Made by a program: the position numbers and the translations under genes
Part shown: positions 35,790 to 42,500 of the stretch, one piece after another
Position numbering within the stretch: position 1 is the first letter of the stretch
Layout: each line of letters begins with the position of its first letter
From: Oceanotoga teriensis
GTDB lineage: Bacteria > Thermotogota > Thermotogae > Petrotogales > Petrotogaceae
Reading direction: 5' to 3'
Assembly (NCBI RefSeq): GCF_003148465.1
Contig: NZ_QGGI01000014.1
Coordinates: forward strand, 1 to 64,000
DNA length: 64,000 bases
Notes under the pieces: generated by a model
What the model was told of the DNA's origin: nothing
What the model saw: only the letters and a program-made list of their open reading frames with translations
The model's database searches: none

Positions 35790-36791
35790 TTAATTCCATT
35801 TGAGTATATCATCTAATTCTTTTCTTATCCTCGGTCCATTTTCTACTTCAATATGTTTTTCAGTTAAATATTCACCTGCACCAGGATATCCAACAGCTAT
35901 AACAGTTATCAAAACAGACTCATCATCGATATTTAAAAATTTTTTTAATTTTTCAGATTTATATCCTGCAACCGGATGAGCTATTATCCCCATTTTTGTT
36001 GCTTGTAACAATAGATTAGCAACAGACATTCCAGTATCAAACAAAAAATAATCTCGTGAATCATTTAATGCACAATCATCTTCTTTTTTTGAATATACTG
36101 CTATCAAAGCCGATGAATATTTCATCCAGTAATTCCCATCTGGTATGTATTCAAAAGATTTTTTTAATTTTTCATCAGAATTTATAACATGATATCTCCA
36201 AGGTTGATTATTAAAACACGATGGAGCTTTAGTGGCAGCTTCTATAATTTTTTTGATCTCTAAATCGCTAACTTTTTTTATAGAGAAAGATCTTTTAGCC
36301 CTTCTAAACTCTATATTGTTATCGATAGAAAAATCATCAAATACAATATTTTCTATCTTTTCGTACAATTTGTCAACAAAAATTGGATTTGTATCTTCAC
36401 AAACATCTCTCAATCTTACCCATCTATCCAAAATATAAGCTTTTCTCTGTACAGAATCTCTTTCAATGACATTAAAAAGATTTGAAATCTCAAGATTTTT
36501 ATCAGAAATAAATGTTATATCTAAATCATTTTCATCTCTCAAACCTGCCAAATACTCTTCAGTATCGGGTGTGACAATGATTAAATTCACATCAAATCCT
36601 TCAATTCCGGAAATCTTATTGTATTTAATATGTTGCTGTGATATTTGGAGAACTTCTTCCGAATATTCTCCTGGAAGATGTTTTGGGTAAAATATTAAAA
36701 TAGTATAATTCCCTTTTAAATCATCTTTACTTAAAATATTTCTTCTATCATCAATACCTTTAAAATAAGGAACTTCTTCATACTTTTTCAT
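35790..36791 (-). CDS. peroxiredoxin-like / nitroreductase fusion protein
   Basis: A 333-residue two-domain protein. Residues about 10-150 have the peroxiredoxin (AhpC/TSA) fold pattern, with ILIFYPKHLPG corresponding to the FYPKDxTPGC segment. The peroxidatic cysteine position is Glu42 (PGEYS), and the only cysteine in this domain is C131. Residues about 160-333 are an FMN nitroreductase (RRAKRSFSIKKVS, APSCFNNQPWRYHVI, DTGMSVANLLLQATKMGI). A Prx-nitroreductase hybrid is known from Thermotoga maritima. GGGAGGT precedes the ATG. It is monocistronic. The N-terminal domain is probably not a peroxidase here. Confidence 0.85.
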   Translation of the reverse strand: MKKYEEVPYFKGIDDRRNILSKDDLKGNYTILIFYPKHLPGEYSEEVLQISQQHIKYNKISGIEGFDVNLIIVTPDTEEYLAGLRDENDLDITFISDKNLEISNLFNVIERDSVQRKAYILDRWVRLRDVCEDTNPIFVDKLYEKIENIVFDDFSIDNNIEFRRAKRSFSIKKVSDLEIKKIIEAATKAPSCFNNQPWRYHVINSDEKLKKSFEYIPDGNYWMKYSSALIAVYSKKEDDCALNDSRDYFLFDTGMSVANLLLQATKMGIIAHPVAGYKSEKLKKFLNIDDESVLITVIAVGYPGAGEYLTEKHIEVENGPRIRKELDDILKWN

Positions 36792-36940: not shown

Positions 36941-36985
36941 GTAAAATATATCATATGGATGTGAAAAAACTGGAGGTGTATTTTT

Positions 36986-38803
36986 TTGAAAGGTATGGTC
37001 GTGAGCACCTGGTTGGAAACCTGGCGAAAATTATATGGTGATAATACTGTAAATAATGTTATGAATGAAGTTGGAATGAATAAAGATAAAATATTTACTC
37101 CCATAGAAGAAGTAGAGGATAAAGATGTTTATAAGATGGTTGATTCTATATCTAAGAAAACTGGTCATAGTAAAAAAGATATATTAAAAACCATGGGTAA
37201 AAAAAATATTTATACATTTCATAGTTATTATCCAAACTTTTTTAAGAGAGAAGGAGTACTTGCCTTTTTATCTTCTATGAATGATGTACACAAATCTTTA
37301 ACAAAAAGGATAAAAGGAGCCAAACCACCGAGAATTGACTTTGAAATAGTAAATAATAAACAAGCAATAATTACTTATTCTTCATTTAGAGATATGAGAT
37401 ATTACTTCTTAGGTCTTTTAGAGGGCTCTGCTGAATATTTTAATGATGCCATCGAATACGATATTATAGAAGATATATCAAATGATAAAAATTATTCTAT
37501 AAAAGTTAAAGTTAAAGCTCAAAAAGAATTTGCTCAAATAACTAAGTTAAAATTATTCTCAATTTTAGGACTTGGTATTTTAAAAAGATTCGTGACTAGT
37601 TCTGTCTTTTTGATATTTTTAACAACATTTATATTTTCTATAATTTTTGGAAATATTATGAATAATAATATAATTTCAGCATTATTGACGGCAATTCTTA
37701 GTGGAACCTCTTTTGCATTTTTAGGCGTTTACTTTAAAAAAGGTCTTAGAACAACTAATTCAAGTATAGAAAATATGAAAAAAAATAAATTTGATACTCC
37801 TGTATTGGTAAAAGGTGAAAAAGAATTAGAAAATCAAACAAAACAACTCGAAGATTTAAGAATAAGTTTGAGTGGCCTTTTTATAGATCTCGTTGGAGAT
37901 ATAGAAGAAATAGAAATCTTCACTTCAAAAGTTGGAGACAAAGCATCTGAAATGAAAGAACTTTCCGATTCTATGGGTGATCTCGTTGAACAAGTTGCGG
38001 ATGGTTCTGTACAAATAAGTACAGATGCTGAAGAAATATCTAATGTGGTTGAATCAAATGTAAATTCAATAAACAATATAATTCAAAGAGAAAACTCTAT
38101 GGTAAATGAATTAGAAAATGCTGTAAATCAAATAAATAATTCTTCAAAAATGGTTGAATCTTCTTCAGATGGAATAGAAAAAATGTCTTATAGATTCAAT
38201 GATCTTGTAAAAAATAGTAAAAATTTAGAAAATGATGCCCATGAAATAATGAATGTAGTTCAAACAGTTACATCTATAGCCGATCAAACAGATCTTTTAG
38301 CTTTAAATGCTGCGATAGAAGCAGCTCGTGCCGGTGAAGCGGGAAGAGGATTCTCTGTAGTTGCCGAAGAAATAAGACAATTAGCAGAAAGCTCTAAAAA
38401 TGCAGCTTCTCAAATAAGTAATATACTTGGAAAAATATCTTCAGGAATAGATTCTCTTAATAAAAATGTTGAAAATGAATACAATATAATGACTGAAGAA
38501 GCTAAAAAACTAAAAGATAGCTCTTCTACAAATTTGAGTTCTTCAAATAATATAAAGAAAATCTCTTCTGAAATAGAAAATGTTTTAACTGAATTGAAAA
38601 CAGAAGGAGAAAAATTAACAGGTTTAACCGCAAGTGTTCAAAACTTACTTGCAATTTCAGAAGAAGGCTCTGCAACGGCAGAAGAAATATCTTCTTCAGT
38701 AAGAGAATTCATAAGAAATCTAAAAGGTATACTCGATGATCTTGAAAAAACCAATGCTTTTATAAAAGGATTCAAGAAAAATTTCGAAAAAATAAACTTC
38801 TAA
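36986..38803 (+). CDS. chemoreceptor with an N-terminal H-NOX haem gas-sensing domain
   Basis: Chemotaxis receptor of 605 residues. Residues 1-180 are an H-NOX (HNOB) domain. Proximal haem ligand His102 (NDVHKSL), the YxSxR haem-propionate motif Y131/S133/R135 and Pro115 are present. The distal residues Trp9, Asn74 and Tyr140 match, residue for residue, those that bind O2 in the Caldanaerobacter Tar4 H-NOX. Two membrane helices (about 205-225 and 232-252) form a hairpin with no periplasmic domain. The signalling domain has [20 protein letters not shown]. The start is TTG (36986), 7 bases after GGAGGTG, and gives the MKG N-terminus expected for H-NOX. The rbr-sor-rd genes follow on the same strand. 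Confidence 0.96.
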
Positions 38804-38809
38804 ATGTTA

Positions 38810-38854
38810 ATTTCAACCTTTTGAAATAAATTCTTCAAAAATAAATGTTATAAT
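38810..38854 (+). promoter_or_regulatory. candidate promoter and inverted repeats before rubrerythrin
   Basis: ATTTCAA / TTGAAAT (38810-38827, 4-base loop) and an overlapping TTTTGAA / TTCAAAA pair (spaced 8) precede an extended -10 TGTTATAAT (38846-38854). The TTCAA palindromes could be an operator for an O2- or peroxide-responsive regulator, or a weak terminator of the H-NOX gene; no long T-run follows, so I favour the first. Confidence 0.45.
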
Positions 38855-38908: not shown

Positions 38909-39418
38909 ATGGTTAAAAGAGAAATGACAAGACAATTCTTAGAGGATGCTTTTTGTGGAGAATCAAAAGCACATATGAAATATTTAATTTTTGCAGAAGA
39001 AGCCGAAAGAAAAGGTTTAAAAAATTTAGCCAGAATGTGGAAAGCTATTGCATATGCAGAATTTACTCATGCAAGAAATCATTTTAAAGCTTTAGGTTAT
39101 ATAGGCTCTACAGATGAAAATCTTCAAAGTTCTTATGATGGAGAACATTTTGAAATAGAAGAAATGTATCCTGTATATAATAACTCTGCTGAATTCCAAA
39201 CTGAACCAGAAGCTGTTAGAACAACTCATTTTGCTCTTGAAGCTGAAAAGATTCATGAAAAAATGTATAAAGATGCACAAGAAAAAACTAAAGATGGAAA
39301 TGATATAGAAGATTCAAAATTCTATATATGCAATGTTTGTGGTTATACAACTGAAGATGAAGTACCTGAAAAATGTCCTGTATGTGGTGCTTCTAAAGAG
39401 ATGTTTAAAGAGTTTTAA
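38909..39418 (+). CDS. rbr: rubrerythrin
   Basis: Peroxide-reducing non-haem diiron protein of 169 residues. The four-helix domain supplies diiron ligands in FCGESKAHMKY, AYAEFTH and ALEAEKIHEKMY. The C-terminal rubredoxin-like domain has the two Fe-binding pairs CNVCG and CPVCG. GGGGG precedes the ATG. It is followed by superoxide reductase (22 bases) and rubredoxin, the standard electron-transfer set of O2-exposed anaerobes. Confidence 0.95.
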   Translation: MVKREMTRQFLEDAFCGESKAHMKYLIFAEEAERKGLKNLARMWKAIAYAEFTHARNHFKALGYIGSTDENLQSSYDGEHFEIEEMYPVYNNSAEFQTEPEAVRTTHFALEAEKIHEKMYKDAQEKTKDGNDIEDSKFYICNVCGYTTEDEVPEKCPVCGASKEMFKEF

Positions 39419-39440: not shown

Positions 39441-39794
39441 ATGTTAGGTGATATCATAAAAAAAGATGACTTCAAAAATGAAAAACATGTTCCAGTAATA
39501 GAATGTCCCGATAAAGTTAAAGCTGGAGAAGAATTCATGGTAGAAGTTCAAGTTGGAAAAGAAATAGCACATCCAAATACAGTTGAACATCATATTGCAT
39601 GGATAGACTTATTTATTCATTATGATGGAGATCCTAATACAGTAAATCTTGGAAGATTTGAATTTGGTGCTGTTGTTGGACAACCTCATGTAAAGCATGT
39701 TATAAAATTAGACAAACCTGGTAAATTAATAGCTCTTTCTTATTGTAATATTCATGGTCTTTGGGAAAGTTCAAAAGAAATAGTGGTAGAATAA
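39441..39794 (+). CDS. sor: superoxide reductase (neelaredoxin type)
   Basis: Reduces superoxide to peroxide with electrons from rubredoxin. At 117 residues it is a one-iron SOR with no desulforedoxin domain. Ligands are visible: the lid Glu14-Lys15 with His16 (EKHVP), His44, His50, Cys102 and His105 (SYCNIHGLW). I use the ATG at 39441 because AGGGGGAATTAAA precedes it; a frame extending back to 39333 overlaps rbr without a ribosome binding site. Rubrerythrin then removes the peroxide it makes. Confidence 0.95.
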   Translation: MLGDIIKKDDFKNEKHVPVIECPDKVKAGEEFMVEVQVGKEIAHPNTVEHHIAWIDLFIHYDGDPNTVNLGRFEFGAVVGQPHVKHVIKLDKPGKLIALSYCNIHGLWESSKEIVVE

Positions 39795-39830: not shown

Positions 39831-39992
39831 ATGAAAAAGTACAGATGTATAATTTGTGGATACATTTATGACCCTGCTGAAGGAGATCCAGATAATGGAG
39901 TAAATCCAGGCACATCTTTTGATGATATTCCAGAAGATTGGGTATGCCCTTTATGTGGTGCTTCTAAAGAAGATTTTGAAGTAGTAGAATAA
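39831..39992 (+). CDS. rd: rubredoxin
   Basis: Small electron carrier of 53 residues with a single Fe(SCys)4 centre from CIICG (residues 6-9 region) and CPLCG (residues 39-42). The aromatic core residues Y4, Y11, Y13 and W37 are in their usual places. AAAGGAG precedes the ATG. It lies 36 bases after sor and delivers electrons to SOR and rubrerythrin. Confidence 0.95.
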
Positions 39993-40001
39993 ATATAATA
40001 A

Positions 40002-40036
40002 AATGTGGAGATTATTTATCTCCACATTATTTTATT
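40002..40036. terminator. bidirectional terminator between rubredoxin and clpC
   Basis: AATGTGGAGAT / ATCTCCACATT, 11 bp with a 5-base loop, followed on the plus strand by ATTTTATTATG. It touches the clpC stop codon. Confidence 0.85.
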
Positions 40037-42500
40037 ATGATCTTTCTGATATTTCTTTTTTTGTTTTTATATCTCCACCTGTTTTTCTTAAATTCAATTT
40101 ATCTTCTATTAACTCTACCATCACAGAATCTCCTTCTTTTACTTCCTCATTTATTATTTGATTTGCAAGAGGAGTTTCAATATACTTCTCAATAACTCTT
40201 CTCAAAGGTCTCGCACCAAATAATGGATCATACCCTTTTTCAGAAAGAGCTTTTTTAGCCGGTTCTGTAACTTCTATTTTAATTTTTTTCTCATTTAACC
40301 TTTTTTCAAGTTTTAAAATCATTATATCAACTATACTCTTCATATCATTTAATGTTAATGGTTTAAATACAACTATATCATCAAGTCTATTAACAAATTC
40401 TGGTCTAAAAGCTTTTTTCACTTTATCCATAACTTGATCTTTCATATCTTGATACTGTTCTTCACTGTCTTCACTTATAAACCCTAAAGTTCTTTTAGTC
40501 TTTGTAATCCTTTCAGATCCTAAATTAGAAGTCATTATTATTATTGTATTGGCAAAATTTACAGTTCTTCCTTGAGAATCAGTAAGTCTACCATCATCCA
40601 TTATTTGAAGTAAAATATTAAAAATATCTGGATGTGCTTTTTCAATCTCATCAAGAAGTATCACGGAATAAGGTCTTCTCCTAACTCTTTCCGTTAATTG
40701 TCCACCTTCTTCATAACCAACATAACCAGGAGCAGCTCCTATTAATCTTGAAACAGAATATTTTTCCATATATTCACTCATATCTATTCTTATCATAGAA
40801 TTTTCATCACCAAATAAATATTCTGCAATTGATTTTGCCAATTCTGTTTTACCTACTCCTGTTGGTCCAAGAAACAAAAAACTTCCTGTAGGTCTTCTTG
40901 GATCTTTTAGCCCTGCCCTTGATTTTCTTATAGTTTGCGAAATAACATTAACAGCTTCATCTTGTCCAACCATTCTTTTATGTATCTCCATCTCAAGATT
41001 TATTAATTTTTTTCTTTCATCTGATAACATTTTCGTAACAGGAATTCCCGTCCACTGTTGAACAACATAAGCTATAGTTTCTTTATCTACTATATTATGA
41101 ATAGAATCTTCTTCTTTTTTTACATTTTTCATAGCATTTTCAAGCTCTTTTTGTACATCAAAATAATCGGCTTTCTTTTTTGCCGCTTCTTCATATTTTT
41201 CTTCAAATGTTAATTGATTTATTTCATCTTCGAGCCTTAACATTTTTTTCTCTATCTCTCTTACTTCTGTAGGTTTTGTAGTATTTTTTAATTTCACTTT
41301 AGCCGATGCTTCATCTATTAAATCTATAGCTTTATCTGGTAAAAATCTATCTGTTATATACCTTTGAGAAAGTTTAACAGCTGATTCAACAGCATCATCA
41401 GTTATTTCAACACCATGATGTTTTTCATAACTCAATTTCAATCCTTTTAAAATTTGTATAGAATCCTCTACAGTAGGTTCTCCAACATCTATAGGTTGAA
41501 ATCTTCTTGAAAGAGCTTTATCTTTTTCAACATGTTTTCTATATTCTTCCATGGTTGTAGCACCAATAATTTTAAGTTCACCTCTTGCTAAAGAAGGTTT
41601 TAAAATATTTGCAGCATCCATTGTATTTCCCTCAGTAGCACCTGCTCCCATTATGGTGTGTAACTCATCTATAAAAAGAATTACTTGATCTTTCATCTTT
41701 CTTGCTTTATCTATAACTGATTTTAATCTTTCTTCAAAATCACCTCTAAATTTAGTTCCTGCGAGCAAACCTGCCATATCGAGTTCAAGAAGTTTTTTAT
41801 CTTTCAAATAATAAGGGGCTTCTTCATCCACAATTAATTGAGCTAAACCTTCAACAATAGCTGTTTTTCCAACACCTGCATCCCCTACAAGAACTGGATT
41901 ATTTTTATTTTTTCTCGATAATATTTCAACCATTCTCTGAATTTCATTTTCTCTTCCTATAACAGGACTTAATTTACCTTTTTTAGCTTCTTGTGTAAGA
42001 TCTATAGTAAATTTTTTTAGAGGATCTATTTCTGCATTTTCATACTCATCCGAACCTTCTTCTATATATTGAGTTAATATTTTTCTTATCTTTTTTTCAT
42101 CAGTATAAGCTTTAAGTATCTTGGCAGCAAAAGAATTTTTTTCAAGATATATACCAAGAACAAGACCCAATAAAGTTATTTTCTTTAACTTATAAGCTCT
42201 TATTTCTTTTTTTGCTATTTCAATAGCATTTGTAAGATTATTGGATAAAAAAATTCCATTCTGATTTCCAGAATAAAATACTCCAATATCTTGTTCAAGA
42301 TTATTGTTCAAGTCTTTTTTTAATGCTTCTATCTCATTATTTTCAAATAAAGCATTAATTCCTTCATCATTCATATCGGCTATAGAAAGCATCAAATGTT
42401 CTGGCTTCACTATATTACCACCAGAAGATGTCAACATTATCTGTGCATCTTGCAAAGCATTTAAAGCTTTTTCTGTAAAATCATTTGGATTCATTCTCAT
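40035..42500 (-). CDS. clpC: AAA+ ATPase ClpC, unfoldase of the Clp protease
   Basis: Unfolds substrates for ClpP. The 821 residues are laid out as an N-terminal double-Clp-N repeat (about 5-145), AAA1 with Walker A GDAGVGKT (about 195), a short middle domain with a UVR-like helix (EEKYEEAAKKKADYF), and AAA2 with GPTGVGKT (about 545), ending in the C-terminal small domain. The short middle domain points to ClpC rather than ClpB, which has a longer coiled coil. GGAGGTG is 9 bases before the ATG (42500). It overlaps an upstream 41-codon ORF by 20 bases. A promoter and palindrome lie further upstream, fitting stress control. No ctsR, mcsA or mcsB is adjacent. Confidence 0.93.
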   Translation of the reverse strand: MRMNPNDFTEKALNALQDAQIMLTSSGGNIVKPEHLMLSIADMNDEGINALFENNEIEALKKDLNNNLEQDIGVFYSGNQNGIFLSNNLTNAIEIAKKEIRAYKLKKITLLGLVLGIYLEKNSFAAKILKAYTDEKKIRKILTQYIEEGSDEYENAEIDPLKKFTIDLTQEAKKGKLSPVIGRENEIQRMVEILSRKNKNNPVLVGDAGVGKTAIVEGLAQLIVDEEAPYYLKDKKLLELDMAGLLAGTKFRGDFEERLKSVIDKARKMKDQVILFIDELHTIMGAGATEGNTMDAANILKPSLARGELKIIGATTMEEYRKHVEKDKALSRRFQPIDVGEPTVEDSIQILKGLKLSYEKHHGVEITDDAVESAVKLSQRYITDRFLPDKAIDLIDEASAKVKLKNTTKPTEVREIEKKMLRLEDEINQLTFEEKYEEAAKKKADYFDVQKELENAMKNVKKEEDSIHNIVDKETIAYVVQQWTGIPVTKMLSDERKKLINLEMEIHKRMVGQDEAVNVISQTIRKSRAGLKDPRRPTGSFLFLGPTGVGKTELAKSIAEYLFGDENSMIRIDMSEYMEKYSVSRLIGAAPGYVGYEEGGQLTERVRRRPYSVILLDEIEKAHPDIFNILLQIMDDGRLTDSQGRTVNFANTIIIMTSNLGSERITKTKRTLGFISEDSEEQYQDMKDQVMDKVKKAFRPEFVNRLDDIVVFKPLTLNDMKSIVDIMILKLEKRLNEKKIKIEVTEPAKKALSEKGYDPLFGARPLRRVIEKYIETPLANQIINEEVKEGDSVMVELIEDKLNLRKTGGDIKTKKEISERS

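Follow-up and report, generated by a model that had tools for sequence, protein, structure and literature searches.

Organisation of the receptor locus

The window analysed here, a stretch of 64,000 nucleotides from Oceanotoga teriensis, carries on its forward strand a single open frame at 36986-38803 (stop codon at 38801-38803) that encodes a 605-residue H-NOX-MCP chemoreceptor. The first-pass annotation had proposed such a receptor at this position, and Pfam bears this out with an HNOB domain (PF07700) at residues 2-158 (E 2e-44; 151.8 bits against a curated cut-off of 25.5) and an MCPsignal domain at residues 389-542 (E 2.5e-33). The haem domain (residues 1 to ~180) is followed by two hydrophobic segments (about 193-226 and 228-250) and a cytoplasmic MCP region that runs to the C-terminus, giving the membrane-anchored MCP fusion of the O2-type H-NOX class. 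Both the H-NOX and the MCP domains are expected on the cytoplasmic side of the membrane, since the protein has no large extracytoplasmic part; the full-length AlphaFold model is of moderate confidence (mean pLDDT 74) and was used for topology alone. There is no cysteine anywhere in the 605 residues. A ribosome-binding-like GGAGGTG (36972-36978, forward strand) precedes the TTG codon at 36986 and supports a start there (MKG...) over an ATG three codons downstream, and the MKG start is kept in aligned relatives. An open reading frame scan found no long frame on the reverse strand opposite the gene.

Directly 3' of the receptor, on the same strand, lie genes for a 169-residue rubrerythrin (38909-39418), a diiron peroxidase with a rubredoxin-like domain; a 117-residue superoxide reductase (SOR) of the desulfoferrodoxin/neelaredoxin family (39441-39794); and a 53-residue rubredoxin (39831-39992), which is kept in seven relatives and is the probable electron donor to the other two. 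A terminator-like hairpin on the forward strand (40002-40028; 11 pairs, T-rich on both strands) separates the rubredoxin gene from a convergent gene for a ClpB-like chaperone (40035-42500, reverse strand), which ends the conserved block and is probably not functionally part of it. The divergent upstream neighbour of the receptor (35790-36791, reverse strand) encodes a fusion of AhpC/TSA peroxiredoxin-like and nitroreductase domains, and this gene does not adjoin H-NOX in relatives.

Seven further genomes, from three genera, have the same order H-NOX, rubrerythrin, SOR, rubredoxin, and contig positions indicate it in one more (G054) from another genus, which makes nine genomes of five genera with O. 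teriensis included. Sequence inspection places an extended -10-like site, TGTTATAAT, at 38846-38854 on the forward strand ahead of the rubrerythrin gene, and the motif TGnTATAATTWAC precedes rubrerythrin in seven relatives, with one base off in one. Because this motif is conserved, the rubrerythrin cassette probably also has a promoter of its own. The cassette persists without H-NOX in four genomes (G036, G037, G050 and G052), which together with the conserved -10-like site weakens a reading of the four genes as a single hnox-rbr-sor-rd operon.

The neighbours differ in other families. In genus g5, each of the seven genomes has the receptor lined up with a 1-Cys peroxiredoxin (within about 3-4 kb), a Cache-HD protein and an adenosine-specific kinase. 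An HD-domain gene takes the position directly upstream of the receptor in many f8 loci and in some from other families, which hints at a connection with cyclic-di-GMP or a similar signal. This gene encodes an HD_5 domain with a partial HDOD and often overlaps the H-NOX-MCP gene (L054, L056-L062, L064 and others, in f8 and f4). Neither rubrerythrin nor SOR was present within the fetched flanks of any of 80 other loci, which are mostly from Clostridia, with a few from Thermotogota and one from Calditrichota. Gene context supports O2 as the signal in the family to which O. teriensis itself belongs, yet not universally. We found no paper treating H-NOX and rubrerythrin together in the open literature, a scope outside which most subscription journals fall, and the literature naming H-NOX and Thermotoga appears, from its titles and abstracts, not to be about such a receptor.

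An O2-type haem pocket

Residues 1-180 align without gaps to Caldanaerobacter H-NOX (1xbn/1u4h; phmmer against PDB, E about 2e-37), and W9, N74, H102, P115, Y131, S133, R135 and Y140 carry the same numbers as their equivalents there, as had been claimed from a residue count against the Tar4 protein. The YFLGL motif common to both proteins anchors Tyr140, rather than the adjacent Tyr139, as the equivalent distal tyrosine. An AlphaFold model of the haem domain (pLDDT 92.3) reaches a TM of 0.92 to 1u4h, and its best 18 PDB matches are all O2-binding Caldanaerobacter H-NOX (TM to 0.93). By sequence and by predicted fold the pocket corresponds to the one in the O2-binding protein, with Trp9, Asn74 and Tyr140 in matching positions, and the earlier assignment to the O2 type stands. 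The protein thus combines the H-NOX fold, the proximal His102 and the Y-x-S-x-R haem-propionate motif of the H-NOX family with the distal Tyr140, Trp9 and Asn74 of the O2-type class.

An alignment of 35 sequences has 19 invariant columns, and all eight pocket positions are among them. The probability that eight random columns would all be invariant is 2.6e-9, so these residues, as read from the alignment, are under constraint, yet they are ordinary for the H-NOX-MCP family. Among the MCP-type Thermotogota domains aligned, W9/N74/Y140 are kept in 43/43 at a mean pairwise identity of 47%, and the pocket residues are among 21 invariant columns. The haem-contact residues H102, Y131, S133, R135 and P115 are invariant in both alignments.

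NO-selective H-NOX proteins (Shewanella, Vibrio, Nostoc) and soluble guanylate cyclase have the same fold, and the NO-selective structures rank lower against our domain model (TM about 0.8-0.86). The proximal His and the YxSxR motif are common to the NO-selective and O2-type proteins. According to PMC8738867, the NO-selective H-NOX of facultative anaerobes are without the distal Tyr that the O. teriensis receptor has; they exclude O2 and occur for the most part as separate proteins that partner kinases or enzymes of cyclic-di-GMP.

The closest known system is the Tar4 H-NOX of Caldanaerobacter subterraneus (Thermoanaerobacter tengcongensis; 1u4h, 1xbn, 1u55, 1u56), which along the gapless 180-residue alignment agrees in haem ligand, in the YxSxR motif and in the W9/N74/Y140 triad and which is likewise an MCP fusion from a thermophilic anaerobe (PMC9814294). 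It differs in sequence (37% identity over the domain; Ile5 in place of the Val5 of O. teriensis) and in setting, as the O. teriensis receptor adjoins the rubrerythrin, SOR and rubredoxin genes and its host has a second H-NOX-MCP and no known haem synthesis. The H-NOX-MCPs of Clostridia (Alkalithermobacter, Clostridium, Sporomusa), a group that includes the Clostridium botulinum H-NOX protein named in PMC7356049, are similar in domain order, length (about 600 aa) and pocket residues. The Thermotogota proteins nonetheless form a separate, well-supported clade, and the clostridial loci, unlike that of O. teriensis, have no rubrerythrin or SOR in the fetched flanks.

Distribution and phylogeny

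H-NOX is present in 46/103 Thermotogota genomes, so a receptor of this kind is no rarity in such an organism. The W9/N74/Y140 set is kept in every full-length Thermotogota H-NOX read, and the pocket residues are identical in 80/80 related loci from other genomes, which have MCP-fusion length where complete. The O. teriensis receptor is a member of the known O2-type H-NOX-MCP class of obligate anaerobes. Maximum-likelihood analysis groups the MCP-fused Thermotogota proteins in one clade (support 100/97) amid Bacillota sequences, a placement that suggests a single exchange of H-NOX-MCP between the two phyla, in either direction.

A second H-NOX-MCP of 609 residues is encoded elsewhere in the O. 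teriensis genome (C4:98636-100465; L032:6637-8466). It is 43% identical over the domain, sits on a long branch and keeps W9/N74/Y140, with a one-residue insertion ahead of Tyr140. New here are the single supported Thermotogota clade and this divergent second copy, as well as the position of the gene directly ahead of the rubrerythrin-SOR-rubredoxin cassette in five genera. The sole Thermotogota exception to the pocket is a stand-alone 180-residue H-NOX with Leu9/Phe140 (L014/L052, G004:C269); with its NO-type residues, 5.3-kb contig and very long branch, it may be assembly contamination.

Haem supply

Profile searches found ferrochelatase (PF00762) in 0/103 Thermotogota genomes, and HemB and HemC only in the same four of them. 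In O. teriensis, whose genome is a 45-contig draft of 99.86% completeness in which a profile-based absence would miss an unrecognised haem pathway, HemB and HemC were absent and the search for AhbD returned only low-scoring radical-SAM proteins, none convincing. The expectation in the first-pass annotation that haem synthesis would be incomplete is thereby confirmed. One radical-SAM protein (C4:88299) matches the AhbD model over its full length, but scores 91 bits against a cut-off of 500; it lies near the second H-NOX, among ABC-transporter genes of a peptide-type cluster, and was set aside as AhbD. The sole complete-looking sirohaem-dependent Ahb haem cluster seen among the 103 Thermotogota (G015:C56, L161) comes with a possible multihaem-type cytochrome gene, in a genome without H-NOX.

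Because the O. teriensis genome is without a known route of haem synthesis, we infer that haem for the receptor is imported and that its occupancy depends on uptake. Also new is the finding that the host of this receptor has no known route to haem and that ferrochelatase is missing from every Thermotogota carrier. The genome has 12 matches to FecCD-type permeases (10 full-length), whereas most relatives have 2-3. As candidate haem importers these FecCD-family systems were not borne out, with none of six substrate-binding partners tested reaching any named NCBIfam cut-off.

Haem auxotrophy may extend to H-NOX-MCP carriers beyond the Thermotogota, since in 48 such carriers a strong AhbD-like gene is present in 17 and a weak ferrochelatase fragment in no more than one. 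Clostridial carriers thus have AhbD-type haem synthesis in about a third of cases, unlike O. teriensis.

Two further clusters may concern tetrapyrroles. Late genes resembling those of anaerobic cobalamin synthesis (CbiC, D, E/T, F, G, H, J, A, P and B, named from sequence reading) lie at C1 about 232000-247000 (L200, L170, L201) with a BtuCDF-like importer; occurring without HemB or HemC, they point either to uptake of a tetrapyrrole intermediate or to a pathway remnant. On C6 (L167:691-7790), a NifH/CfbC-like gene and two NifD/K-like genes stand beside a FecBCDE iron-siderophore-type ABC importer, and this nitrogenase-like cluster possibly acts on a tetrapyrrole or metal complex.

Proposed function and alternatives

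According to the literature, a distal Tyr in the H-NOX of obligate anaerobes goes with O2 binding and with fusion to an MCP (PMC8738867, PMC9814294); this Tyr is needed for O2 binding and marks this obligate-anaerobe class (PMC8738867), and the Trp9-Asn74-Tyr140 triad stabilises O2 (PMC7356049). We consider it probable that the O. teriensis receptor is an O2-type H-NOX chemoreceptor working with imported haem and, most plausibly, steering the cell away from O2. In this mechanism a b-type haem, scavenged from outside, would be held by His102 and the Tyr131-x-Ser133-x-Arg135 motif. O2 would bind in the distal pocket, where Tyr140, positioned by Trp9 and Asn74, would stabilise it through a hydrogen bond. 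Binding would alter the shape of haem and domain, and the change would pass through the membrane hairpin and the cytoplasmic MCP rod to CheA/CheW, whose output would change swimming, most plausibly away from O2. The O. teriensis genome carries CheW-domain genes, among them two long frames that would fit CheA, so that CheA signalling in response to O2 is possible. That the domain is loaded with haem, that it senses O2 and that the cell responds by moving away are all points that we infer; such avoidance is plausible for an anaerobe, and O2 tolerance varies among Thermotogota (PMC7795431).

Homology supports the O2-type reading well, and gene context supports it in part, through the rubrerythrin cassette and the 1-Cys peroxiredoxin near the receptor in genus g5. 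Counting against our preferred explanation are the promoter-like site of the cassette and its survival where H-NOX was lost, the differing neighbours in other families, the dependence of haem occupancy on uptake and the capacity of the same H-NOX pocket to bind NO and CO (PMC9814294). The O2-sensing role of the Caldanaerobacter protein is itself merely presumed (PMC9814294), and its structure 1xbn was deposited under the title 'bacterial nitric oxide sensor'. If the receptor were a sensor of NO, very low concentrations of that gas would trigger it and the distal Tyr would just tune affinity. We think this unlikely: the invariant residues are the O2-stabilising set, the neighbouring genes encode enzymes of O2, superoxide and peroxide with no NO enzyme among them, and reviews prefer O2 for the MCP-fused class (PMC8738867). 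The rubrerythrin-SOR-rubredoxin neighbours thus favour O2 over NO as the signal.

The missing HemB, HemC, ferrochelatase and convincing AhbD would fit a protein that does without haem, either as an apo-protein sensor of redox state or temperature or with another tetrapyrrole bound. The invariance of all five haem contacts makes this very unlikely, and the Cys/Zn redox mode of Vibrio cholerae H-NOX, as described in PMC7108781, is excluded because the receptor has no cysteine. Haem auxotrophy of the host, together with the lack of H-NOX in several relatives, could also be taken as a sign that the gene is non-functional or decaying. Set against an intact frame, a conserved MCP tip, strict conservation of the pocket at a mean identity of 47% and retention in 46/103 genomes, such decay is scarcely credible.

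The O2 receptor that we favour allows a tentative extension, which we regard as possible though on balance doubtful. A haem-auxotroph lineage would keep a haem-dependent O2 receptor on scavenged haem only, and the receptor would work only where O2 and outside haem co-occur, a sign of lysed or aerobic neighbours. In Petrotoga-type genera it would be set beside enzymes that remove superoxide and peroxide, linking escape and detoxification.

This receptor class was already known from anaerobic clostridia and is seen here across much of the heat-loving phylum Thermotogota. Should this class sense O2, close to half of the Thermotogota genomes sampled could perceive it by means of a haem cofactor for which nearly all of them show no known route of synthesis. 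The rubrerythrin-SOR-rubredoxin neighbourhood offers a gene-context argument for O2, and two questions become directly testable: which signal an MCP-fused H-NOX perceives in vivo, and from where an organism without haem synthesis obtains its haem.
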